A DNA stretch of 48,345 nucleotides. Origin: Granulosicoccus sp. Its GTDB lineage: Bacteria > Pseudomonadota > Gammaproteobacteria > Granulosicoccales > Granulosicoccaceae. The stretch lies in the NCBI GenBank assembly GCA_023300375.1, contig JALZWO010000100.1, positions 1-48,345 of the forward strand. Reading direction: 5' to 3'. The position numbers were made by a program, and so were the translations under genes. Below the pieces are notes generated by a model. The model was not told where the DNA came from. It saw only the letters and a list, made by a program, of their open reading frames with translations, and did no database searches. Every line of letters starts with the position of its first letter. Within the stretch, counting starts at the first letter, position 1. Below are positions 18,874 to 45,982 of the stretch, piece by piece.

Positions 18874-19635
18874 TCAACGTAAATCCTTGCGCTCTAGCCG
18901 ACGCTCAAACCAGCGTACACCAGCAGACACCACCAGTATAAGAATGAGGTACTCGAGCACCAGTACCGTATAGATTTCTAATGGACGGTATTGAGACGTC
19001 ACTAACTCATTGGCACGTCGAGTAAGCTCTTCCATGCCAATCACTGACACCAACGAGGACATTTTGAGCATGTACACCAACTGATTGCCTAAAGGCGGCA
19101 ACACGCGACGAATGGCTTGCGGCAGCACAACAAATCGCATGCGATCGATATAGCCCAAACCTAAGGAATCTGAAGCCTCAAGCTGACCTCGATCAATGGA
19201 CTGTATGCCGGCTCTGAATATCTCCGCTTCAAAGGCGCTGTCGGATAGCGCCAAAGCGATAACGCCTGCCCAAAACACCGACACCGCAATACCCATAACA
19301 ATGGGTAGGCCATAATACACCCACAAAATTAAAACGAGGATAGGTACTGCTCGCACGACTTCTACATAGACGCGATTAAACGCACGCCAAAGCGGGTTGG
19401 ACGACAGACCCGGCAGCGCCACCAACAGGCCCACCACAACGGATACCACAATGGCCGTTATGGATAACAACAAAGTGTACTTGAGACCACCCGCGAGAAA
19501 CATCAGGTTGGTGCGCCCTGTCTCGGTCATGGGCGATACTACATACCATTGAAGATTGCTGTTACCACAGCTGACTAAAAAACCACTGCTTAATAAAACA
19601 ATCCAGAGTCGATACTGCCTGATCACACTATTCAT
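18874..19635 (-). CDS. Polar amino acid-type ABC transporter permease
   Basis: 253 residues, HisM/GlnP type. The EAA loop is EASDSLGLGYIDRMRFVVLPQA (about 153-174), and RAVPILVLILWVYYG is a typical core helix. The N-terminus is unusual: after one hydrophobic run it reads LLSSGFLVSCGNSN, a lipobox-like sequence followed by a polar loop before the permease core. It is preceded 26 bases upstream by the ATPase gene and followed one base later by the flavoenzyme. Only one permease is encoded, so a homodimer is likely. Confidence 0.9.
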   Translation of the reverse strand: MNSVIRQYRLWIVLLSSGFLVSCGNSNLQWYVVSPMTETGRTNLMFLAGGLKYTLLLSITAIVVSVVVGLLVALPGLSSNPLWRAFNRVYVEVVRAVPILVLILWVYYGLPIVMGIAVSVFWAGVIALALSDSAFEAEIFRAGIQSIDRGQLEASDSLGLGYIDRMRFVVLPQAIRRVLPPLGNQLVYMLKMSSLVSVIGMEELTRRANELVTSQYRPLEIYTVLVLEYLILILVVSAGVRWFERRLERKDLR

Positions 19636-19661
19636 GTTAAATCTATGTCCGCAGCGCTATT

Positions 19662-20432
19662 TCAGTGTTGGAGAATTTGTTGCAAGAACAATCTTCCACG
19701 CTCAGATTCAGGTGCTGTGAAGAATTTCTCAGGCGGTGATGTCTCAACGATTCGTCCACCATCCATAAAGACCATCGTGTCGGCCACTTTTCGAGCGAAG
19801 CCCATCTCGTGTGTCACCACCATCATGGTCATACCGGTACTCGCTAGCTCAACCATAACGTCTAGTACCTCCGAAATCATTTCAGGATCAAGCGCTGATG
19901 TGGGTTCATCAAACAGCATGACCTTGGGCTCCATACACAGACTACGAGCAATAGCCACGCGCTGCTGCTGGCCACCAGAGAGCTGACTAGGGTATTTGTC
20001 AGCCTGCTCAGGAATACGCACTCTTTCAAGATAACGCATAGCGAGATCAGTAGCGGTTTGTTTACTCAGCTTACGCGAGCGCATGGGGCCGAGGGTGAGG
20101 TTGTCCAGCACAGACAAATGCGGAAACAAATTGAACTGCTGGAAGACCATGCCAACATCTGCACGCACCTCTCGCAGCTTTTTCTTGTTACGACCAAGCT
20201 CAATCCCGTTAACGATGACCTTTCCGGCATCGTGTTTCTCGAGCTGGTTTACGCAACGAATCAATGTGGATTTGCCAGAACCCGAAGGTCCACAGATAAC
20301 CATTCGCTGGCCCGCATTCACACTCAACGATACTTCGTGCAGCGCCTGAAATTTCCCAAAAAAACGCGAGATCCCTACCAATTCGATGATGGGCTGAGAA
20401 TCTTCGTTATTCACTTTTTCACTGTTCATCAT
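19662..20432 (-). CDS. Polar amino acid-type ABC transporter ATPase
   Basis: 256 residues from the double ATG at 20432/20429 (a longer frame to 20516 lacks support). Walker A is GPSGSGKST, the Q-loop is [11 protein letters not shown], the signature is LSGGQQQR, Walker B is VMLFDEP, and the switch His is in VTHEMGFA. These are the features of GlnQ/HisP-type importers. It is the first gene of the minus-strand unit ATPase-permease-flavoenzyme. It diverges from the binding-protein gene at 20534, and the roughly 100-base gap must hold both promoters. Confidence 0.93.
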
Positions 20433-20533
20433 TGATAGCTTAGCTGATGCGATGTAGCGTGGGCTGTTTTCGCTGATCCTCCTAGCCGCTGAGGCGGGTA
20501 TACTTGTCTCTCTCACACATATATCTGAAACAA

Positions 20534-21334
20534 ATGATTAAGCGAACCAGCAGCTCCCTACTCGCCGGTGCAGCCTTGGCAATGGGTGCGTTTTTCAGCC
20601 TCTGCACACCCGCTATCGCCGCCGATTCCGTGCTAATCGATATTATTTCCAGTGGCAAGCTCAAAGTCGGCACTACCGGTGATTGGGATCCAATGACCAT
20701 GAAAGATGTAGCAACCAATTCCTATGTTGGCTACGACATCGATGTGGCTACAGAACTTGCCAAAGATCTAGAAGTTGAAGTGGAATTTGTGCCCACTGAC
20801 TGGAAAACACTCGTTAGTGGCGTAACAGCCGGCAAATACCACATGACGGGCAGCGCATCGATTAGCCCAGCACGAGCTAAGGCCGCAGGCTATACCGATA
20901 GCTACTTTGCGCTGAACACCGTGCCGCTAACATTGAAGAAAAACGCAGATCGTTTTCAAGACTGGGACGATCTGGACAAAGAAGACGTCACTGTTGCTGC
21001 CACTCTTGGCACAACACAGGAGCAACAAGTAAAAGAATTTTTCCCGAATGCTCAAAAGAAAATCATTGAAGCCCCTGCAAGAGACTTTCAAGAAGTTCTG
21101 TCAGGTCGAGCAGATGCACACATCACCTCCAATGTTGAGGCGTTCAAACTGGTCGAAAAATACACAGAACTCATGGTACTACCAGTAAAACAAGGGCGTG
21201 CTCGCACGCCTATCGCTATGCTGGTTCCGCAAGAAGACCAAGTCTGGATTAATTATCTAAATACCTGGATCAAACTCAAGCAAGAGCGTGGTTTTTTTGA
21301 TCAGCTTGCCACCAAGTGGAAATTGAGTAACTAA
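20534..21334 (+). CDS. Periplasmic family-3 solute-binding protein resembling cyclohexadienyl dehydratase (PheC)
   Basis: 266 residues from the ATG at 20534 (an in-frame TTG at 20504 is less likely). The signal peptide ends at PAIAA. The body follows the SBP_bac_3 pattern but resembles periplasmic cyclohexadienyl dehydratase PheC more than generic binders: [44 protein letters not shown] and [10 protein letters not shown]. The Glu in the last motif sits where PheC has its catalytic Glu (recalled alignment, not computed). It may be the binding protein of the divergent ABC genes, an aromatic dehydratase, or a relative of both. A 12-base-stem hairpin separates it from the aminotransferase gene. 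Confidence 0.88.
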
Positions 21335-34619: not shown

Positions 34620-35861
34620 ATGAACAAAAACGTCATTGTCCGAAGTGATGATTTGCGCAATAGCAATCGTCACCGAGTGCTGGCTTGTTTGCGCAAGACA
34701 GGTCGCTCTCACGCCACCGAACTTGCCAAAAACACAGGCTTGAGCGCAGCATCAATATCATCACTTACCGCCCAGCTAGTGGAACAGAACGTTGTTGCCA
34801 GTGGTCGTAGCAAACACAAATCTGTCGTCAACGCTCGTGGCCGACCGCAGTCACTTGTTGAGCTCAATGCCGATGCAGGAGACATTGTCACCGTCAGCTT
34901 GTCTATCGATTTTTTAAAAGCTCAACGTCTTGATTACACGGGTGCCACTTTGTACGAACACCATGTGACACTCGATACACGTTCGTTATCCGAAATCGAA
35001 CTCATTAGTGCCATCTGCAATGCTATCGATGCTTGTTTGTGCCAACAAAACCTCAAGCGTGATGTCACAGCTCGACACATAGGCATCGCGTATTCCGGAG
35101 CAACGGATCACGCTAATGGAACACTCTTGTGGTCGCCCATTGTTGCTCACAAGAACATCGAGCTTGGCAGCGAACTAAAACGCCGTTTCAACATGCCAGT
35201 CAGTATTACCAACAATTGTTGTCTGATTGCAGAGGCTTTAAATAACACCCATCAAAGCACGCTGGGTGGGACTTTCGCCACGCTGGTATTTTCGCATGGC
35301 ATTGGCCTTGGTATGTTTGTCGATGGTAAGCCTTTATTAGGCAAGAACTCTTCAGCCATGGAGCTTGGTCACTTGACATTTGAACGCAACGGGGCACTTT
35401 GCCGTTGTGGCAGAAACGGTTGTATTGAAGCGTATGCTGCGGACTACGGTATCGAACGTCTGGTAGCTGGTGATTCAATAGATACACCACCCTCTGGACG
35501 TGTCGATCCCAGCGTATTTCAAAACCTTCGCAAAGCAGCCAAGGATAAAGATATGCCCGCAATGCAAGCATTCGCCATCGCCGGTGCTGCCATTGGTGAA
35601 GGCCTATCTACTTTGTTTACTCTATTTGGGCCTATGCCTGTAGCGTTAGTAGGACGAGACAGGGATTGCTTAAAATTGATGGAAGCTGGTATAAATTCAG
35701 CTTTTCGTGATCATGCTCTAGACCAGAATATTAACGAGCTACTGCACCGATTTGATGCCACTGAACCTTTACTCGAGGCAGGTCTTGCCATGAACACCTT
35801 ATCCAGGCTTGATCATACGCATGCGTATTCCACCCAAGTTACAGCCACAATTTCTGCTTAA
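34620..35861 (+). CDS. ROK-family transcriptional regulator (XylR-like)
   Basis: 413 residues from the ATG at 34620; a longer frame to 34566 would enter the xylF promoter. An N-terminal winged helix covers about 12-55 (NRHRVLACLRKTGRSHATELA, then NTGLSAASISSLTAQL). The C-terminal ROK domain has GIAYSG, GIGLGMFVDGKPLLG and the zinc motif ELGHLTFERN followed by CRCGRNGCIEAYA. It should repress the divergent xylose transporter and release on binding a sugar. The gene is immediately followed by the di-heme protein gene (13 bases), so autoregulated cotranscription is likely. The canonical ATP-phosphate motif DxGxT is weak, fitting a regulator and not a kinase. Confidence 0.9.
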   Translation: MNKNVIVRSDDLRNSNRHRVLACLRKTGRSHATELAKNTGLSAASISSLTAQLVEQNVVASGRSKHKSVVNARGRPQSLVELNADAGDIVTVSLSIDFLKAQRLDYTGATLYEHHVTLDTRSLSEIELISAICNAIDACLCQQNLKRDVTARHIGIAYSGATDHANGTLLWSPIVAHKNIELGSELKRRFNMPVSITNNCCLIAEALNNTHQSTLGGTFATLVFSHGIGLGMFVDGKPLLGKNSSAMELGHLTFERNGALCRCGRNGCIEAYAADYGIERLVAGDSIDTPPSGRVDPSVFQNLRKAAKDKDMPAMQAFAIAGAAIGEGLSTLFTLFGPMPVALVGRDRDCLKLMEAGINSAFRDHALDQNINELLHRFDATEPLLEAGLAMNTLSRLDHTHAYSTQVTATISA

Positions 35862-35874
35862 TAATCTGACAAAC

Positions 35875-37317
35875 ATGTTTTCAGCTACGCCTTTCCAATT
35901 GTCATGCCTGATGCTCCTGCTCAGCCTGAGCATCAGCGCGCATAGCGATCAAAACACGTTATGGAGCGAGCACGCCATACCCGCAATTCCTGACACGTTA
36001 AACAAGCAAGGCAAACTGGATTCAGCGACCTTGCAACAGCTTATTGAACATGGTGAGCTATTGTTCGATGCCCGCTTCACCACACTAGACGGCGCTGGTC
36101 GCCCTATGGCGACACAGGCAATTATTCCTACCAAACGCAAACGTGCACCACGAACCGAATTTTCACGAACCGCAGGACTGGACGCTAATGCGTGCAGCAG
36201 TTGCCACAATGTGCCTGTAATAGGCGGTGCGGGAGATTTCTCAGCCAACGTCTTTGTTTCGGAAGGCTTTGTACAAAGTGATTTCGATACCACAGACCCA
36301 CAATTCTCGAACGAACGCAACACCAACCACTTGTTTGGTGCAGGACTCATCGAACTCCTAGCCCGAGAAATGAGCCGCGATTTACAAACATCGCGAATAC
36401 AAGCCTTGCAACAAGCAAAAACCTCTGGTGAAGCCATCAAACAAACACTGCAAAGCAAAGGCGTCAGCTTTGGCAGTTTGCAAGCCTTTCCCGACGGCAC
36501 CATTGATACTGCGAATGTGGAAGGGGTTGATATAGATTTAGTGGTGCGTCCTTTCAGTCACAAAGGAGTGATGACATCACTTCGTCAGTTTACTGTTAAC
36601 GCACTCAATCATCATCACGGTATTCAGGCGATAGAACGCTTTGGAGCGCGTTGGACCGATAACGCCGATTTTGACGCTGATGGTTACGAAAATGAAATGA
36701 GCGAGGTTCAAGTGTCGGCATTGGTTGCTTGGCAAGCAAGCCTTCCACCGCCAAGTACCCTAAAAACAGATAATAAACCGTGGCAAGCGGCCGCCCGTGC
36801 CGGCGAGCAAACCTTCAACGACATAGGCTGTGCAGCTTGCCACAAACCCTATTTGCTGCTCGAAAACTTAGACTTCCACGACCCGGGTCCACTCGACGCC
36901 GCGGGTACCCTGCGCAACTCAGAAGTTAACGGCCGAGTGTACCCACTCAACCTACTGACATGGGCCAGCACACTAGAACGTGACGCCAATGGTCACTATA
37001 AAATTCCGTTGTTTGGCGACCTCAAACGCCATGTCATCTCTGACCAGCAAGTAGCCGCCCTAGGCAACGAGTTGTTAAGTCAGCGATTCGTTGAACGCAA
37101 TGTCTTTATGACAACAGAGCTCTGGGGTGCGGCTTCTACAGCTCCCTATGGTCATCGAGGGGATATGACCACACTGAGTGAAGTTATCGACGCGCATGGA
37201 GGTCAGGCACGGCCCTCACGAGATAGTTGGCAATCGTTATCAAAGGAACAACGTTCAAACGTCATCGCTTTTCTAAAAACACTCATAATCGACCCGGTAA
37301 AGGCAAGCGCAGAATGA
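35875..37317 (+). CDS. Exported di-heme oxidoreductase (DHOR, DUF1111 type)
   Basis: 480 residues from the ATG at 35875, just after the ROK stop; an upstream in-frame ATG would overlap the ROK gene. A signal peptide ends near SISAHS. Two heme c motifs are present: CSSCH (107-111) and CAACH (about 319-323). Blocks GAGLIELLAREMS, FSHKGVMTSLRQF, GYENEMSEVQVSALV and LWGAASTAPYGHRGDMTTLSEVI match the putative thiol oxidoreductase/di-heme family. It is a periplasmic cytochrome that probably oxidises a substrate and passes electrons on. The last four bases overlap the next gene as ATGA, so the two proteins are coupled. Confidence 0.9.
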   Translation: MFSATPFQLSCLMLLLSLSISAHSDQNTLWSEHAIPAIPDTLNKQGKLDSATLQQLIEHGELLFDARFTTLDGAGRPMATQAIIPTKRKRAPRTEFSRTAGLDANACSSCHNVPVIGGAGDFSANVFVSEGFVQSDFDTTDPQFSNERNTNHLFGAGLIELLAREMSRDLQTSRIQALQQAKTSGEAIKQTLQSKGVSFGSLQAFPDGTIDTANVEGVDIDLVVRPFSHKGVMTSLRQFTVNALNHHHGIQAIERFGARWTDNADFDADGYENEMSEVQVSALVAWQASLPPPSTLKTDNKPWQAAARAGEQTFNDIGCAACHKPYLLLENLDFHDPGPLDAAGTLRNSEVNGRVYPLNLLTWASTLERDANGHYKIPLFGDLKRHVISDQQVAALGNELLSQRFVERNVFMTTELWGAASTAPYGHRGDMTTLSEVIDAHGGQARPSRDSWQSLSKEQRSNVIAFLKTLIIDPVKASAE

Positions 37318-39053
37318 GACCTTTTTGCTACTCGCACCAGCGACGCTATGGCTTGTTGATAGGGCTATTATTATCGTGTACGACAATGCTATCCACTCAC
37401 ATCCATGCACAAGATTCAGACATAGACTATGCTGGAGATATTCCCCATTACGTGGAACAAGCGCTAGAAGCTGGTATAGAGCATCAATACTCCGGAGCTT
37501 GGGAGTTTTTTGTGGGTGGGGGTGTCAGTAGCTTTGACTGCAATGCTGATCGTTTCCCAGATCTCTTCATTGCAGGAGGCGAAGCAACAGCGGGCCTATA
37601 TATCAACCGTAGTAAGCCTGGCCAATCACTGCAGTTTGAACAAGACAAGACATCCAGTCTTGCACTGAAAGATGTGCTGGGCAGCTACCCTATAGACATT
37701 GATAACGATGGTCATCTCGACCTAGTAGTGCTTAGACTCGGTGCTAATCAGTTATTCAAAGGGGGTAAAAATTGCACCTTCACTCCTGCCAACAGTCTGT
37801 GGAACTTTGATGGTGGCAATGCATGGACAACCGCTTTCAGCGCAAATTTTGAGAAAGATCTCGACTTCCCCTCACTGGCCATCGGTAACTATGTGGATAG
37901 AACCGCACCCGGCTCTCCCTGGGGCACCTGTGATGCAAACGAACTGCACCGACCAGCTGCGCGTTCAACATCTCAAGCTGAGGACAATGCAGAAAGCCAA
38001 AGTAAAAACAGTATGGGCATCCCTCAGTACGATAACCATCAAGCTTTAACCCCAGGCTATTGTGCGTTGTCAATGCTGTTCACTGACTGGAACAAAAGTG
38101 GCACCGACTCCTTACGAGTCACTAACGATCGGCACTATTATCGTGGAGGTCAGGAACAACTATGGCGGTTCGACAGTGGAGAATATCCCAGGCTTTTTTC
38201 ACGGGCAGAAGGTTGGGAGCCTTTGGTGATTTGGGGAATGGGAATAGCAGAAACCGACCTCAACGGCGATGGCTACCCCGAGTATGCATTAACGTCCATG
38301 GGCGATACCAAACTACAAGTTCTGGATCTGCAACAAGCTATTGAAGAGAACCGACCCGTCTATGAAGATATGGCTTGGGCAAGACAAGCCACGGCTCATC
38401 GCCCATACACCGGCGACGACTTGAAGCCGAGCACTGGCTGGCATTCGCAATTTGCCGACGTTAACAATGATGCACGTACCGATCTTTTTATTGCTAAAGG
38501 CAATGTCGAGAACATGCAAGACTTCGCCAACTTTGACCCTGACAACTTACTGTTGGGCACTCAAGCCAATACGTTCAGCGAACAAGGTGAGAAAGCGGGT
38601 CTGGCCAAAGACACGCGAGGGCGAGGAGCGAATGTTGTCGACTTAAACGCGGATGGCCTTCTGGATATCGTTGTCGTCAATCGCGAAGATAATGTCAGCT
38701 TGTTTCGGCACGCTGGCATGCAGCATGATGATGGCCCTAGAGCCGGTGGAAATTGGTTAAAGATAGAATTGCAGCAAAGCGGCGCTAACAGACACGCCGT
38801 TGGGGCGACGGTATCGATAAAAACGGGTAATCTTGTGCAAACACGCCGTGTGCAAGTGGGTGGCGGACATGCTTCAGGCAGCGCAGGGTTTGTCCATGTT
38901 GGTTTAGGCGTGGCTGAACGCGCTACGCTGCGTGTACAGTGGCCAGACGAACAATGGAGCGCTCCGTACAAGTTGTTTGCGAACCATCACGTTATTGTAA
39001 AACGCGACCAGGACACTGCCCTGCAGTGGTTTCCTGTTGAAAAATTAGACTAA
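37314..39053 (+). CDS. Exported FG-GAP/ASPIC-UnbV (CRTAC1-family) protein
   Basis: 579 residues from the ATG at 37314 in the ATGA overlap with the di-heme gene. A hydrophobic signal (GLLIGLLLSCTTML) is followed by a beta-propeller with Ca-binding loops: FDCNADRFPDLFIAG, DIDNDGHLDLVV, DLNGDGYPEYAL, DVNNDARTDLFIA and DLNADGLLDIVV. The C-terminal ASPIC/UnbV domain reads WLKIELQQSGANRHAVGA, GGGHASGSAGFVHVGLG and VQWPDEQW. CRTAC1-like bacterial proteins are usually secreted or surface-held and of unknown role. Pairing with di-heme proteins is seen in other bacteria (general recollection). The xylulokinase gene follows about 180 bases later across a palindromic repeat. Confidence 0.9.
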   Translation: MRPFCYSHQRRYGLLIGLLLSCTTMLSTHIHAQDSDIDYAGDIPHYVEQALEAGIEHQYSGAWEFFVGGGVSSFDCNADRFPDLFIAGGEATAGLYINRSKPGQSLQFEQDKTSSLALKDVLGSYPIDIDNDGHLDLVVLRLGANQLFKGGKNCTFTPANSLWNFDGGNAWTTAFSANFEKDLDFPSLAIGNYVDRTAPGSPWGTCDANELHRPAARSTSQAEDNAESQSKNSMGIPQYDNHQALTPGYCALSMLFTDWNKSGTDSLRVTNDRHYYRGGQEQLWRFDSGEYPRLFSRAEGWEPLVIWGMGIAETDLNGDGYPEYALTSMGDTKLQVLDLQQAIEENRPVYEDMAWARQATAHRPYTGDDLKPSTGWHSQFADVNNDARTDLFIAKGNVENMQDFANFDPDNLLLGTQANTFSEQGEKAGLAKDTRGRGANVVDLNADGLLDIVVVNREDNVSLFRHAGMQHDDGPRAGGNWLKIELQQSGANRHAVGATVSIKTGNLVQTRRVQVGGGHASGSAGFVHVGLGVAERATLRVQWPDEQWSAPYKLFANHHVIVKRDQDTALQWFPVEKLD

Positions 39054-40691: not shown

Positions 40692-41204
40692 TTAACTTCC
40701 ACCACTGGCAGCAGCCATGCTGCGAGCGATACCTTCAAAATCCATGTAGCCAAAATTTGTACCCTGCAAATTGCCTGCAGGATCGAAAAACATAAACGTT
40801 GGCGCTGTTCTGAAACTCTTACCTGTCAGCTCTTGGTACTGTCTGCGATAGACGTCTGAGAAAGCGATCAAGTTGTCGTAACTGTGCGCGTGCTGCTCAA
40901 TACGCTCAATTATTTCCGCCTCTTTTTCAACGCCATCTATGGCTACCGTTACCACACGAGCCAAGTTACCTTTGTACTTCTCGTGAAACGCATTTAAGGC
41001 CGGTTTCTGCTCTTCACAAATCAAGCAGTCGAGTTGCCAGATCATGACAACTGTCCAGGTACCGTCACCAACGAAATTCAGCAGATTAGTACGCTCGCCA
41101 CTTTCAGCCTGAAGTACAAAAGCCTGCGCTGAAGCTGAGCATAGCAATGAGGCTAACAGTATTCCTGTGTTGACAACAAAACTACGCAATCTTTTGGCTG
41201 ACAA
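40692..41204 (-). CDS. Exported TlpA-like thioredoxin-fold protein
   Basis: 170 residues. The start is TTG with GGAG eight bases upstream. A signal peptide ends at ASAQA. The fold shows a CxxC redox site in QLDCLICEEQKPAL and a cis-Pro segment RTAPTFMFFDPAGN. The CLIC pair is atypical of the usual CPPC/CGPC. It probably acts in the periplasm on disulfides. It lies 80 bases downstream of a lipoprotein gene with conserved Cys residues, transcribed in the same direction. Confidence 0.88.
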   Translation of the reverse strand: MSAKRLRSFVVNTGILLASLLCSASAQAFVLQAESGERTNLLNFVGDGTWTVVMIWQLDCLICEEQKPALNAFHEKYKGNLARVVTVAIDGVEKEAEIIERIEQHAHSYDNLIAFSDVYRRQYQELTGKSFRTAPTFMFFDPAGNLQGTNFGYMDFEGIARSMAAASGGS

Positions 41205-41283
41205 AATGACATCTCCGAGCTTGTTAGTTTCTCTATGACTGTCGAACTAACAGTCAAGTTCCGTGAAGTATATAACGGTTACC

Positions 41284-42438
41284 TCACACTTGGCGGTTTA
41301 GTGTAAGCACCACACCACGTTTGGGCAAGTTATCCAATGACCCGTCGCCTGCCCAGCAGCCTTCGTCAAGAATATGACCATCGTCAACACCAGCAAATCG
41401 CAATGCTTCAACCACTCGGCCAGCTCGCCCCAACGCCAGAGCCGCATTACCGCCATTCACAGTGGTATGTCCCAGCGAGCAACCGATCACCGAAAACACA
41501 TCAGTTCTGGGGTCATACCGGCTCACTAGCCGCTCTACCAGATTTTTGTTTGATTCTCCAAGCCGCATTGAGTCGTTTGCAAAGGTCAATACAGTTTCTG
41601 AAACCACTCTGTGTCCTGACAACGCATCCTCAAAATTTGAAGCGCCCAGCACAAACACGTTTTCTTCACGGGGAAGCACGGCTAATTGCTGGGACAAAGT
41701 CCCTGCGGTATTGGCAGTAACCCGCCCAATCAAAGGGTTCAATGGGTTTGCATCCGCTGGCAATTGCAAACTGGATGAATTCTGTAGAGCCAAGGCCGGT
41801 GAAGTGTTCCGTTGGATCTGAGCCTTAGCCTGAAGGGGCACCGGGTTGACACGCGCAGCCTGCAACTCTTCAACAGGGCGGTAAGACTCACGCAAATTAT
41901 TCTGTTTACGTCGATTTGCAATACCTTCTGTTTGCCGAACAAACAAATCATCATTCAAGACAACTCCCGTTGCATCAGTTCCACGCACGTAAAGTGGCGT
42001 CAATGGCTGCACTTGCGGGCCCGCTGTGGTGTAAGTTCGGCGCATTTCTATGGCACCGATGGCGAGTTCATAGGTATCGCTCCCCTGATCTTGCTTTGTG
42101 ACTTCAACGGAATGTCGATACTGGAAAAGCAGATTAGTGCCTTGATCTTCGACCCAACGAATGGCGTAGCCGGCCTTTTGCAAAGCCGATAACATGGATC
42201 GCGTGAATTGATCGTTGCGTAGTGAGCCTTGTAAGGCAACCGTGGTTGAAAAAGCAGGCACGGCATCGAGCTGTCTCAATGCATTAACAAAATCTGTGGC
42301 TATGAGGTCTAGCTGAGGCATGACTTCGCTAAAGCTGGCTTCCAACTTCTCTGGCGATTCAACCTTTTTATCCACAATGCCGCAGCCACCAAGATGTACG
42401 GCAGCACCTATAATAACGAGCGTGGGTATTTTCATCAT
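41284..42438 (-). CDS. Lipoprotein with OmpA-like C-terminal domain, paralogue A
   Basis: 384 residues from the double ATG at 42438/42435. The lipobox is LGGC. An N-terminal alpha/beta module contains KAGYAIRWVEDQG, shared with both paralogues. A Gln/Asn-rich linker follows. The C-terminal domain has LTFANDSMRLGESNKNLVERLVS, VIGCSLGHTTVNGGNAALALGRAGRVVEAL and ILDEGCW, an OmpA-like fold with the peptidoglycan-binding Arg but without the usual Asp in GHTD. Two Cys (GCS and EGCW) are conserved with paralogue B and may form a disulfide. Longer upstream frames lack support. It probably attaches the outer membrane to the cell wall (inference). Confidence 0.85.
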   Translation of the reverse strand: MMKIPTLVIIGAAVHLGGCGIVDKKVESPEKLEASFSEVMPQLDLIATDFVNALRQLDAVPAFSTTVALQGSLRNDQFTRSMLSALQKAGYAIRWVEDQGTNLLFQYRHSVEVTKQDQGSDTYELAIGAIEMRRTYTTAGPQVQPLTPLYVRGTDATGVVLNDDLFVRQTEGIANRRKQNNLRESYRPVEELQAARVNPVPLQAKAQIQRNTSPALALQNSSSLQLPADANPLNPLIGRVTANTAGTLSQQLAVLPREENVFVLGASNFEDALSGHRVVSETVLTFANDSMRLGESNKNLVERLVSRYDPRTDVFSVIGCSLGHTTVNGGNAALALGRAGRVVEALRFAGVDDGHILDEGCWAGDGSLDNLPKRGVVLTLNRQV

Positions 42439-42696
42439 AAAGCGGCTGATTCCGTTGTTTTTTCCTGCACGTCCCGGTGATCGCAGTCCACAAGACCTGC
42501 AGAAGCCTTCGTTGCCACCGTGACGCAACTATACAATCGAGAAATGATGTGATTCAGTAAACTCAGTCACGATTGGACACGTTCATTAGTTAACCGGCGC
42601 ACGTTGTGGCCAAGCACCTGCAAACCTAAGCAATTGCCGAGTACACTAGGGCCAACTTCGCGATACCGATCCAGACTTTTTTCTCGGAATTTTCTT

Positions 42697-43797
42697 ATGC
42701 TAGCAACATCATCAGACACATCTCGGACGTGGGTAGCCCTGCCCCTCGTCATTGGCACCTTACTTTTAAGCGCTTGCGGCAGTACCAATTTTGCCTCCGA
42801 AGCAGGCGAAATAAGTGAGCCTGTGAGTCAAAAACCTGAACCCAGTATCTCTGCTGTCAATGAGGCTATCGCCTCAGATATTGTGCAGATCACTGAACAA
42901 ATTTTTCCAGCCTTCAGTACGACCCTGCAATTCACGTCGAATCAAAATGATCTTTTTTTGCAGCATTTTGCCCTCACATTTGCCAGTTTAGGGTATGGCA
43001 TACAGCAGGTAAATGCCGACCAAGGATCGCACCATTTCACCTACACGCTAGACGAAAAAACGAACGAAAACGATGTTCCTATTCTGCAACTCAACGCCTC
43101 AATTGGCGGAGCTGTAGTAAGCAGAGATTACAGAGTTGCGAGCAACGGTACAATTTCACCTGCCAGTGCAGTCAGACTCTCGGGAACGCGTATGCCAGTT
43201 GAGGTAGCCGACACAACAACAGAGCAATTCAAGGCAAGCGACAATAACTTTTCAAAAGTCGTTTACGTCGCTTCACTTAATCTTGATGAGCAAGCACCAC
43301 CGTTAATATCGTTGATCACCAACGATATCGTCAATCAAGTGTCCTCAAGCAGTGCTGGCGTGCGCTCAGACTCACCCAGTTTTAGTGGACTCAATTCAAG
43401 TCGTGTTGAAACTGGCAATATATTTCATACAGGGGAGTCAAATTTTGCCTCCATACTCCAGAATCGCCAGCTCGTGTCTCAGCAATTTATCGTTTTTGGC
43501 AACGACTCCCTAGTACTCGGGAGACCCAATAAATTACTTCTCGAACAAGTTGTGCTTCAAAAATTACAAACTTCTGATCTGATCAATATCATTGGATGCA
43601 GCACCGGGCCGACGTCGCTAACCATCGGCAATGAAGGCTTGGCGCTTGGCCGGGCCGAACGTGTTACCGAGGCGCTGTTAGCCGAAGGTGTTGCACGCGA
43701 ACGAATACTTGATGAGGGTTGTTGGGCACCTGAAGCCGGTGCAACCGATCTTCCCAATCGCGGTGTGATGCTTGAAATCTGGAGGCAAAACACATGA
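42697..43797 (+). CDS. Lipoprotein with OmpA-like C-terminal domain, paralogue B
   Basis: 366 residues from the ATG at 42697, with GGAA eight bases upstream. The lipobox is LLLSAC. The N-module has LGYGIQQVNADQG. The C-terminal domain has VFGNDSLVLGRPNKLLLEQVV, IIGCSTGPTSLTIGNEGLALGRAERVTEAL and RILDEGCW, then LPNRGVMLEIW. The match to paralogue A is strongest in the last hundred residues. The stop overlaps the next gene (ATGA, 43794-43797). It starts 258 bases from divergent paralogue A. Confidence 0.87.
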   Translation: MLATSSDTSRTWVALPLVIGTLLLSACGSTNFASEAGEISEPVSQKPEPSISAVNEAIASDIVQITEQIFPAFSTTLQFTSNQNDLFLQHFALTFASLGYGIQQVNADQGSHHFTYTLDEKTNENDVPILQLNASIGGAVVSRDYRVASNGTISPASAVRLSGTRMPVEVADTTTEQFKASDNNFSKVVYVASLNLDEQAPPLISLITNDIVNQVSSSSAGVRSDSPSFSGLNSSRVETGNIFHTGESNFASILQNRQLVSQQFIVFGNDSLVLGRPNKLLLEQVVLQKLQTSDLINIIGCSTGPTSLTIGNEGLALGRAERVTEALLAEGVARERILDEGCWAPEAGATDLPNRGVMLEIWRQNT

Positions 43798-44945
43798 TTA
43801 TTCCAACCGTGCAATCAGCAAGCCGGCACCTAATGTTTAGGTTTTCTCTTGTAGCTCTCGTGGGACTGCTTGGTGCCTGTGCAAGCATACAATCACAATC
43901 ACAACCAGAACCAGAACCAGAACCAGAAACAGAACCATTAACGACTCCCACTCCTGACCCTGGGATAAGTGTTGAATCAGTTACACCAAGGTTAGGCGGC
44001 AACATCGAAGCGCTCAGCAAGATTAGCGCTGCAGAGCGTGCCCAGTTACAACTTATCGCCACCAATATGGTGTCCACCCTTGTACAGATACCAAGCATGC
44101 GTTCTGGCGAAATCACGTTACAAATAAACGACCCCAAAACTGCGTACGGTAACGCGATTGTGCGTGCGCTCGAAGATGCTGGTTTTGGTTTGCAACGTGT
44201 CTCAGCTGACCAAGGACGAAATTATGTGTCTTACAGCAAGCGACTATCAGAAACTGAAGCTGGGTTTGTAACCGACTATGAACTCTCAGCTGGCAAGGTC
44301 ACTTTACAACGCGAATACAGCGTACAGGGGAGCCGAATATACCCGTCATCGCTGATGAATATCGACGGCGAAGTATTGATCGCTGACATTGAATTAACTG
44401 ATGCCATATTTGCTGAGCAAGGCGGAGTCAACGATTCATTTATCAGCGGAGTGCAATTGATGGGTGAACCAGATCCTAACCTCGCAGTGCGAACCGTAGA
44501 CGTCAGATCGTACGATGAAATACCCATGGATAGACGCACGCCTCAAAACGAAATATTTGATAATGCGCGCCTGCGTTTTTTTGAGATCCAGGCTAACAAA
44601 ACAGCACCAAGATTAGATCGATACAACAAGCATCGACGCACTGTACTGATCTTCGAAGACAGCACTTCACAGATCATGGGGAGTGCAAACAAACTGGCAG
44701 TTCGCCTGCTAGTGAGAGAGTTCAGTGACAACGACCTACTGCTGATAAAAGCCTGTCTGGATGCCGATGGGAAGAATACAGCCGCCTTGAACCGTGCGAT
44801 TCGGGTTGAACAAGAGCTACTTGGCTATGGAATACCACAAGAATCCACGTTTATTGCTCCTTGTGCTCGCGCAAGCTACCGGCACTCCTCTGACGATTCA
44901 CCAGAACCTGTAGAATTGGTTCACTACAGACCATCAGCCTCGTAA
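43794..44945 (+). CDS. Lipoprotein, paralogue C (divergent C-terminus)
   Basis: 383 residues from the ATG at 43794, supported by GGAGG eight bases upstream and the ATGA overlap. The lipobox is LLGAC. A Pro/Glu repeat (QPEPEPEPETEP) is encoded by tandem CCAGAA hexamers near 43908-43932. The N-module has DAGFGLQRVSADQG and REYSVQGS. The C-terminal domain keeps NKLAVRLLVREF and a KAC...APC cysteine pair but lacks the GRAxRV block. A degraded or specialised paralogue. Only five bases separate it from aapJ. Confidence 0.85.
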   Translation: MIIPTVQSASRHLMFRFSLVALVGLLGACASIQSQSQPEPEPEPETEPLTTPTPDPGISVESVTPRLGGNIEALSKISAAERAQLQLIATNMVSTLVQIPSMRSGEITLQINDPKTAYGNAIVRALEDAGFGLQRVSADQGRNYVSYSKRLSETEAGFVTDYELSAGKVTLQREYSVQGSRIYPSSLMNIDGEVLIADIELTDAIFAEQGGVNDSFISGVQLMGEPDPNLAVRTVDVRSYDEIPMDRRTPQNEIFDNARLRFFEIQANKTAPRLDRYNKHRRTVLIFEDSTSQIMGSANKLAVRLLVREFSDNDLLLIKACLDADGKNTAALNRAIRVEQELLGYGIPQESTFIAPCARASYRHSSDDSPEPVELVHYRPSAS

Positions 44946-44950
44946 AGCCA

Positions 44951-45982
44951 ATGAAGAAACTACCCAGCAGAGCACTGCAGATAATAGGTGCGGCTGTTCT
45001 TACCAGCGTCGCCCTCATCACTGGCGCAGCTCAAGCTGCAACGCTCGACGATGTGCGTGAGCGAGGTGCCGTGCGTTGCGGGGTTAACACAGGCCTGGCA
45101 GGCTTTGCCAAAGCTAATAGCTTGGGGGAATACTCAGGGTTTGATATTGAAGTTTGTAGGGCAGTTGCTAGCGCATTGTTCAATGACAGCGAAGCGGTCG
45201 ACATGTTTCCATTGTCCAGTGTGGAGCGTTTTCCTGCCCTGCAAGAAGGACTCATCGATGTACTGTCTCGCAACACCACATGGACTCTCGAGAGGAACGC
45301 CCTGTTTGGAGAATATGCTGGCACCAGTTTTTACGATGGCCAAGGATTTATGGTTAACAAGCGTTCTGGCATTCGCAGCGCACTGGAACTCGACAACCGG
45401 CCAATATGCGTGGGTCGTGGGACCACATCAGAACTCAACGTTGCAGATTTTTTCACCGTCAGTGATCTTCGCTACGTCCCTATATTTTTTGAAAACGAAG
45501 CTGAATCACTGTCTGGTTATATCAATGGTGATTGCCAAGCCATTACCACAGACCGCTCTGGGCTGGCAGCACAGCGCAGTGCAATGAGCGAGCCTGAATC
45601 ACACGTCATTTTGCCTGAGGTAATATCGAAGGAGCCACTAGGGCCTATGGTCCCGCCGAATGACAGCGAATGGGAGAACGTGGTTCGTTGGTCGCTAAAC
45701 TGCATGATCAACGCTGAAGAGTTGGGCGTTGCTAGTACCAATGTAGACAACCCTAACGTTGGCAGCACGCCCTCAATAAGACGCTTGCTGGGCCAAGAAG
45801 GAGAAGCTGGAGCACAACTCGGTATGAATCCACAATGGTGTGCACGCATAATTCGCCAAGTGGGTAATTATGGAGAGGTATACGAAAAGCACGTTGGACT
45901 CAATACACCTATTGGCTTATCGCGTGGCATCAATGCCCTGTGGACTGAAGGTGGGTTAATTTACGCACCGCCTGTTCGGTAA
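44951..45982 (+). CDS. aapJ: Orphan AapJ-type general amino-acid-binding protein
   Basis: 343 residues. A signal peptide ends at GAAQA. The mature protein follows AapJ: VRERGAVRCGVNTGLAGFAKAN, YSGFDIEVCRAVASALF, LSRNTTWTLERN and the PICVGRGTTSELNVADFF region, with long C-terminal FGEVYE-like NYGEVYEKHVG and GLSRGINALWTEGGLIYAPPV. It normally works with AapQ, AapM and AapP, none of which is in the window. Placement five bases after the lipoprotein paralogue implies cotranscription and another role, such as sensing or capture. Confidence 0.9.
   Translation: MKKLPSRALQIIGAAVLTSVALITGAAQAATLDDVRERGAVRCGVNTGLAGFAKANSLGEYSGFDIEVCRAVASALFNDSEAVDMFPLSSVERFPALQEGLIDVLSRNTTWTLERNALFGEYAGTSFYDGQGFMVNKRSGIRSALELDNRPICVGRGTTSELNVADFFTVSDLRYVPIFFENEAESLSGYINGDCQAITTDRSGLAAQRSAMSEPESHVILPEVISKEPLGPMVPPNDSEWENVVRWSLNCMINAEELGVASTNVDNPNVGSTPSIRRLLGQEGEAGAQLGMNPQWCARIIRQVGNYGEVYEKHVGLNTPIGLSRGINALWTEGGLIYAPPVR

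Follow-up and report, generated by a model that had tools for sequence, protein, structure and literature searches.

What could three envelope lipoproteins, a thioredoxin-like protein and an amino-acid-binding protein without transporter genes have in common? This question is raised by five genes at positions 40692-45982 of a 48,345-nucleotide stretch of DNA from Granulosicoccus sp. (GenBank assembly GCA_023300375.1, contig JALZWO010000100.1), the whole of which we refer to as the window. An original prediction, made from the sequence of the window alone, had described these genes as a cluster of three OmpA-fold lipoprotein paralogues (denoted A, B and C), a thioredoxin-like protein and an orphan AapJ, which might form an envelope complex. 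We find that the N-terminal domain of A, B and C is, as judged from sequence, homologous to TrbH, the lipoprotein at the VirB7 position of P-type conjugation machines, and that B, C and AapJ are kept together in 21 genomes. The features of the locus, in window coordinates, are the following.

40692-45982, both strands: five genes in two divergent units, a minus-strand unit of A and the thioredoxin-like gene and a plus-strand unit of B, C and AapJ.
40692-41204, minus strand: exported protein of the thioredoxin fold, TlpA/ResA-like, with a signal peptide and a CLIC active site (Pfam and PDB profile match).
41284-42528, minus strand: lipoprotein A, AB-type, with an OmpA-like C-terminus; likely start near 42438, lipid cysteine codon 42382-42384.
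About 41986-42423, minus strand: TrbH module of A (NCBIfam TrbH, 0.0034 with A alone).
41479-41481, minus strand: first conserved cysteine codon of A (GCS).
41356-41358, minus strand: second conserved cysteine codon of A (EGCW).
42604-43797, plus strand: lipoprotein B, AB-type and on the AB side of the tree; likely start 42697, lipid cysteine codon 42775-42777.
42853-43170, plus strand: TrbH-like domain of B (NCBIfam PRK13883, 7.1e-8; mature residues 27-132).
43465-43788, plus strand: OmpA-fold domain of B (AlphaFold2 model, best Z 13.7).
43597-43599, plus strand: codon of B Cys 275 (mature numbering).
43720-43722, plus strand: codon of B Cys 316 (mature numbering).
43794-44945, plus strand: lipoprotein C, C-type; lipid cysteine codon 43878-43880.
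About 44049-44360, plus strand: TrbH module of C (TrbH models PRK13883 and PRK13835).
44754-44756 and 44862-44864, plus strand: codons of C Cys 321 and Cys 357, a pair found in 18/18 and later in 27/27 C-type proteins.
44951-45982, plus strand: AapJ-type solute-binding protein without adjoining transporter genes (PF00497, 7.2e-11), a member of the C-linked clade.

The coordinates, the coupling of B and C by an ATGA overlap, the five-base gap between C and AapJ and the opposite orientation of A and the thioredoxin-like gene are all as originally described. If A starts near 42438 and B at 42697, as is likely, the two units are about 260 bases apart. Open reading frames (ORFs) were called with a simple longest-ORF script; translation starts are uncertain, and many of the genomes compared are draft metagenome-assembled genomes (MAGs).

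Lipobox cysteines are present in A, B and C. BLAST comparisons (5e-35 for A and B, 2e-8 for A and C) and a profile-profile comparison of A/B with C (9.5e-31) established the three lipoproteins as paralogues, and the module around G-Y/F...DQG that they had been predicted to share proved to be real: profile search and a controlled profile-profile comparison both identify it with the TrbH domain. The N-terminal half of B matches TrbH, a conjugal transfer protein, in NCBIfam (6e-8). At expectation values of 0.5 or better, the TrbH model PRK13883 was matched by all 18 C members (best 1.9e-7) and PRK13835 by 15 of the 18 (best 3.3e-9), and a TrbH model was matched by 7 of 12 A/B members. For the profile-profile comparison with hhalign we used three lipoproteins of 149-185 residues from other genomes of the phylum, each of which stands in the place of TrbH downstream of a TrbG-like gene; they aligned with the A/B profile at 9.6e-10 and with the C profile at 8.7e-6, as against 0.43 for an unrelated control. 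At loci L089 and L090 a TrbI-like gene comes after this lipoprotein. The TrbG- and TrbI-like neighbours were named by position; by BLAST, those of L089 match curated TrbG and TrbI from G003, which belongs to the same genus and is considered below. Because their scores stay below the curated cut-offs, we regard A, B, C and the thioredoxin-like protein as homologous to, and not as members of, the TrbH, OmpA and named thioredoxin families, so that the lipoproteins are not filed under TrbH. The assignment also gives a name to Granulosicoccus proteins that stay below cut-off in the Pfam and NCBIfam models applied.

Homologues of B occur in 30 of 57 related genomes, namely in 26/27 of the genus, 4/9 of the rest of the family and 0/21 outside the family. 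The A/B profile found matches in 32 of 48 genomes of the order, all 48 of which, in this collection, belong to this one family. In a sample of 274 genomes of the class, C alone matched 3, including the window's own, one of them weakly (8e-4); in a sample of 398 genomes of the phylum, the A/B profile matched 5, its own over the full length, three in the TrbH part and one in the OmpA part. A contig-wide profile search returned at least 8 loci, all from Granulosicoccus or Granulosicoccaceae MAGs among the matches listed, which is no measure of distribution, and a plasmid search with B gave no match at 0.01 among 72,556 records. In the samples searched, two-domain TrbH-OmpA forms were seen in one bacterial family only.

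Strong C matches (better than 1e-60) were obtained at 23 loci in 21 genomes, and at all 23 an AB-type gene lies directly upstream of C. The AB and C types form the two sides of a quick tree (Shimodaira-Hasegawa-like approximate likelihood ratio support 99; unrooted, no bootstrap), and all 30 close same-strand pairs consist of one C-side and one AB-side protein, the pair of L077 being counted via a long branch that the tree program flagged. AB or C labels were assigned by profile score; at L071, L076 and L077 the first gene scored as AB but groups with the C types in the tree, and for pairing it was counted as C. Seven further operons combine a C-side with an AB-side gene without AapJ, and five of them contain the thioredoxin-like gene; one of the seven is cut by a contig end. 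Solitary paralogues, whose wide occurrence the original prediction would have counted against itself, exist in part: A-type genes do stand alone, and the window's genome holds three further copies.

AapJ follows C on the same strand at 21 of the 23 strong C loci, directly in 15 and behind the thioredoxin-like gene in 6, and the check for conserved gene order that had been proposed comes out positive in these 21 genomes. The thioredoxin-like gene belongs to the cluster at 17 of the 21 AapJ-linked loci: at 11 it lies on the divergent side (with A in 10, without it in one), and at 6 between C and AapJ. B-C-AapJ was found in at least four neighbourhoods, beside xylulokinase, near a pseudouridine-synthase gene (an identity scanned in L083 only) and in at least two others. 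The arrangement is more than chance, since 21 genomes and at least four neighbourhoods contain it, and the linkage persists down to 39% identity of AapJ and 28% identity of C and through relocation. We therefore take an envelope complex of the gene products, as had been proposed, to be the simplest reading of the linkage. The remaining two B-C pairs, in genomes G005 and G017 (L062:7059-10282 and L064:3323-6522), are second pairs that lack AapJ; each is divergent from a solute-binding protein of another family, PBP_like_2 at L062 (2e-41) and, at L064, one that matches a tungstate-binding protein (5e-62).

In an AlphaFold2 model, the C-terminal domain of B has an OmpA fold (best Z 13.7, root-mean-square deviation 2.4, 103 residues). 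The model of C is poor (mean predicted local distance difference test score 55.9), yet its best structure matches are also OmpA-like. The OmpA fold once ascribed to all three paralogues therefore holds for B and may extend to C, the two proteins that the models cover. Pfam gave nothing for A, sub-threshold matches only for B (best OmpA, 0.013) and no relevant match for C; against the OmpA gathering score of 27.2, B reached 16.2 bits, and A and C had no OmpA match. Both cysteines of the OmpA domain are present in 77 of 79 homologues (50/52 A/B, 27/27 C); of the two A/B exceptions, one has serine instead of the first cysteine and the other is a shorter form that lacks the region. The conserved pair thus stands as predicted; its supposed weakness in C does not. 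Of the 70 proteins in which a lipobox was called, 65 have exactly two cysteines beyond the lipidated one in the mature chain. Because the pair is conserved and in these 65 comprises the only thiols of the mature chain besides the lipid cysteine, a single OmpA-domain disulfide per lipoprotein is likely. An identification of the pair with the disulfides of known OmpA domains, such as those of E. coli OmpA and Rv0899, was considered and dropped. Asp at position +2 of the lipobox occurred in none of the 71 called, as expected for outer-membrane sorting; the pattern left 12 of 83 rows uncalled, most of them with a visible variant.

An OmpA-like domain on an outer-membrane lipoprotein could simply be a structural peptidoglycan anchor of the YiaD/Pal/YfiB kind, with AapJ and the thioredoxin-like protein as bystanders kept by operon inertia. 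Excerpts of PMC7192894 give Asp/Asn/Arg as the ligand triad of the peptidoglycan-binding domain. Our residue survey covered 79 rows (one AB row is gapped at the triad, hence 51) and the lipobox survey 83. In A/B the Asp column is Gly in 48/51, the Asn is kept in 45/51 and the Arg in 50/51; in C a possible Asp occurs in 22/27 and the Arg in 26/27, and the Asn column is Asn in only 2/27. The first cysteine of B aligns three residues before the Asp column. Peptidoglycan binding by these domains is doubtful in view of the altered triad. The fold itself, weak A/B matches to YfiB (6/12, best 9.1e-5) and YiaD (4/12, best 0.0013), the retained Asn and Arg of A/B and the many solitary A-type copies fit an anchor; the Gly in place of the ligand Asp, the TrbH domain that makes up the N-terminal half, and an AapJ link that survives movement into at least four neighbourhoods and divergence down to 39% AapJ identity do not. 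We consider a purely structural role unlikely.

The AapJ-type protein itself has a solute-binding family 3 domain, matching SBP_bac_3 (PF00497) at 42.4 bits over a cut-off of 26.4 and PDB entry 4z9n at 1.8e-104 over residues 29-343. That it has no transporter partners is correct locally, since no transporter genes lie beside it; elsewhere the genome has a separate aapJQMP operon (L060) with an AapJ of its own, 51% identical to the linked one, and a permease and an ATPase that match amino-acid ATP-binding cassette (ABC) transporters in the PDB. AapQ-, AapM- and AapP-like genes, whose names outside L060 rest on BLAST to L060, were found at all 14 transport AapJ loci examined. Within five genes of the 21 linked AapJs there is no AapQ- or AapM-like gene (for two of the loci, no gene downstream is available); a single AapP-like ATPase, 35% identical, is the third gene downstream at L040. 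The 21 linked AapJs form a group apart from other AapJs (one change, support 86/75, 88% of bootstraps). Across the same six genomes the transport AapJ has a mean identity of 86.5% and the linked AapJ 67.7%, the linked protein being lower in 15/15 pairs. The linked AapJ thus appears to be a duplicated copy distinct from the transport AapJ. An N-terminal position that is Gly in 14 of 17 other AapJs is variable in the linked set, which hints at altered specificity.

The linked AapJ might still serve uptake as an accessory binder that feeds an AapQMP encoded elsewhere, with B and C tethering it to the outer membrane or the peptidoglycan as a ligand store and the thioredoxin-like protein needed for folding only. 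This would account for the match to 4z9n along residues 29-343, for the presence of both the linked AapJ and an aapJQMP locus in 7 genomes, and for the retention of the pocket Arg in 19/21 and the pocket Asp in 20/21 linked AapJs, which we take from the family to be ligand-binding residues. It sits poorly with a transport AapJ that is present and more conserved, with the separate grouping of the linked copies and with the scarcity of AapQMP-like genes around them. Such an accessory role appears improbable. Two amino-acid-binder contexts outside the cluster should be mentioned. At window positions 18874-21334 lie polar amino-acid ABC transporter genes (a permease and a GlnQ-like ATPase); the binding protein belonging to them seems to be encoded by a divergent gene. 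In L096:74-5178 (G030) and L097:4039-9142 (G018), genes for a HAMP nucleotide cyclase and for an MscS channel with a cyclic-nucleotide binding domain adjoin that of an AapJ-like protein whose start resembles a lipobox; one of the cyclases also has a weak dCache match, and a circuit from ligand to cyclic nucleotide to channel is possible there.

The thioredoxin-like protein matches Pfam AhpC-TSA (2.3e-10), and its PDB profile match is ResA (2e-10). C60, C63 and P135, the presumed cis-Pro, are invariant in 14/14 sequences. It remains under the cut-offs of the named TlpA, ResA and StoA models (28.5 versus 230, 26.7 versus 170 and 25.4 versus 210 bits). Thioredoxins of two lineages lie near lipoprotein pairs; the idea that this linkage is independent was considered and dropped, the tree being unrooted. 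At L069 the contig stops where the gene could lie, and a contig-end thioredoxin of the same genome (L124) groups with the thioredoxins of C-A operons. At L112, L113 and L126 the thioredoxin-like gene occurs without lipoproteins; the pseudouridine-synthase-like gene nearby is of the kind that flanks B-C-thioredoxin-AapJ elsewhere, as if an operon had been split.

If the lipoproteins are related to TrbH, do they also keep company with secretion machines? In G003, which has no strong C match, a run of genes comprises TraG, TraB-like, TrbB, TrbE, two TrbJ-like, TrbL, TrbG and TrbI, of which TrbL and TrbG pass their curated cut-offs and the others do not. Behind TrbI lie, in this order, the gene of a two-domain lipoprotein that falls among the C types in the tree, an ORF of 183 residues and the gene of an AB-type lipoprotein. 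This P-type conjugation operon spans L135:4021-9376 and L172 (G003:C11), and two-domain lipoproteins hold the TrbH place in it. One other genome of the 48, G012, has a distant TrbI match (3.7e-12). Among the window's scanned flanking genes, no TrbG or TrbI lies beside the lipoproteins. A TrbH-family lipoprotein also lies directly after the type III gene SctT or no more than 1.6 kb away in 5 of 15 loci with SctT above cut-off, some of the remaining loci being cut by contig ends. These lipoproteins are TrbH-only at L141 and L142, two-domain at L150 and A-type at L149 and L151; the gene right after SctT is the lipoprotein at L141:4212-5042, L142:3359-3910 and L150:5246-6358. Solitary A-type lipoprotein operons in three genomes (L028:8746-12089, L033:6165-9824 and L166:4088-6476) contain a weakly matching SctD-end-like protein (9.5e-7 at L028, 0.024 at L033, by BLAST at L166) and a protein without a confident family; two of the three have a fasciclin-domain protein. 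From these conjugation, SctT and SctD-like neighbourhoods, the lipoprotein family appears to cluster with secretion machines, with the B-C-AapJ unit as a secretion-free branch.

In the window's genome itself, SctT exceeds the type III cut-off at two loci, L154 (G000:C208) and L155 (G000:C2); one of them has an SctC secretin above its cut-off, both have a histidine-kinase-like gene, and L155 has a LuxR-type regulator. One could therefore ask whether A, B or C is a pilotin or an outer-ring lipoprotein for these type III systems, as the SctT-linked family members and the secretin would allow. No type III genes were recognized among the listed neighbours of the B-C-AapJ loci, not all of which were scanned, and 14 of the 21 B-C-AapJ genomes, which are drafts, have no SctT above cut-off. 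A part in type III secretion is accordingly very unlikely.

Our preferred reading is that B and C, one AB-type and the other C-type, are the two unlike halves of a TrbH/VirB7-like lipoprotein complex in the outer membrane. They would come together through their TrbH domains on the outer membrane's inner face, each carrying a fused OmpA-like domain closed by one disulfide. In this lineage the pair stands apart from secretion genes and is coupled instead to a dedicated AapJ and a periplasmic thioredoxin. Liganded AapJ would dock on the B-C assembly, and the thioredoxin would keep or switch the OmpA-domain disulfides, making docking dependent on both the ligand and the redox state of the envelope. 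The parts, their homologies and their gene linkage are observed; complex formation, disulfide, docking, sensing and redox control are what we infer. A second kind of binder beside the B-C pairs of L062 and L064 is what a docking role would predict. The chances of the whole mechanism, that is, of a mixed B-C outer-membrane complex, AapJ docking and thioredoxin action on the disulfides together, seem to us evenly balanced; that B, C, AapJ and the thioredoxin-like protein form a functional unit is more probable than that. The further step, in which a secretion-type outer-membrane core without its machine has become a redox-switched amino-acid sensor with thioredoxin-set disulfides and a transporter-free AapJ as its input, is a tentative and rather doubtful idea.

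Several observations weigh against this reading. The TrbH scores lie far below the NCBIfam cut-offs of 160-162 bits, the best being 32.8 bits for B, and a search of the window's genome for TrbI relatives at 1e-10 found none. Confidence in the C model is low. The first of the G003 lipoproteins is nearly equidistant by the A5 and A6 profiles (71 versus 75 bits), so that its C label is provisional, and its placement on the C side, like that of the L077 protein, depends on long branches flagged by the tree program; one tandem, at L164, is AB-AB with 683 bases between the genes. The AapJ linkage fits one origin, so the 21 linked loci are not independent; a repeated origin was considered and dropped for the same reason. 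With respect to sensing, the AapJs of L043 and L070 have lost the pocket Arg and that of L070 also the Asp. The thioredoxin-like gene is absent from 4 of the 21 linked clusters, the genomes concerned having a relative elsewhere, and in 3 genomes it stands apart near a pseudouridine-synthase-like gene. Finally, at L062 and L064 the tungstate-type binder could be just an ordinary neighbour, perhaps with its own transporter, and two related loci are thin evidence.

Elsewhere in the window, at 35809-39053, a di-haem oxidoreductase-like gene adjoins an FG-GAP/UnbV_ASPIC gene; in related genomes this pair is kept between xylose-type sugar binder and xylulokinase-like genes.

If the complex exists as proposed, the outer-membrane core of type IV secretion has a lipoprotein component that can occur apart from secretion, joined to a nutrient binder and a redox enzyme. 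The locus would then be a four-to-five-gene system for asking what VirB7-type lipoproteins do alone, and how a disulfide could control an OmpA-fold domain. The travelling of the lipoprotein pair with a thioredoxin and a transporter-less AapJ in Granulosicoccus-type marine bacteria suggests that a borrowed secretion-machine part has been reused as a sensing or docking complex. Kelp-associated Granulosicoccus are described in PMC9238374 as abundant on their host and motile, with likely chemotaxis, and G. antarcticus as having many carbohydrate and amino-acid transport genes; given this lifestyle and richness in transport genes, an amino-acid-responsive envelope complex could matter ecologically.

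How does the locus compare with known systems? With TrbH, the lipoproteins share the lipobox and a homologous N-terminal domain, and two relatives in G003 follow TrbI in a conjugation operon; they differ in the fused OmpA-like domain with its cysteine pair, in occurring as two unlike subunits and in that the window's genome lacks a TrbI relative at 1e-10. Like YfiB, YiaD and Pal, they end in an OmpA fold and have no Asp at +2 of the lipobox, whereas the cysteine pair, the changed peptidoglycan triad and the N-terminal TrbH domain set them apart. In the excerpts of PMC5550408 and PMC4655355, the YfiBNR system has an outer-membrane OmpA lipoprotein, YfiB, that sequesters the disulfide-bonded periplasmic YfiR, and its homologue HmsCDE is redox-sensitive. 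The likeness is one of logic only, consisting of an OmpA outer-membrane lipoprotein, a periplasmic partner and a disulfide state; neither YfiR nor the diguanylate cyclase YfiN was recognized in the five-gene unit (the flanking genes were not all scanned), the partner here is AapJ, and the conserved cysteine pair resides in the lipoproteins. The linked AapJ resembles the AapJ of the general amino-acid transporter AapJQMP in family, length and pocket residues and differs from it in having no adjoining transporter genes, in its separate grouping and in its lower conservation. With TlpA and ResA, the thioredoxin-like protein shares the CxxC motif, the presumed cis-Pro and the fold family; it differs by scoring under the equivalog cut-offs and by being tied to lipoprotein genes. 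We found no description of a TrbH-OmpA fusion or of its AapJ link in the literature searched (open-licence PMC). Taken together, the parts belong to known families, and the TrbH-OmpA architecture and its coupling to AapJ and a thioredoxin appear to be new.

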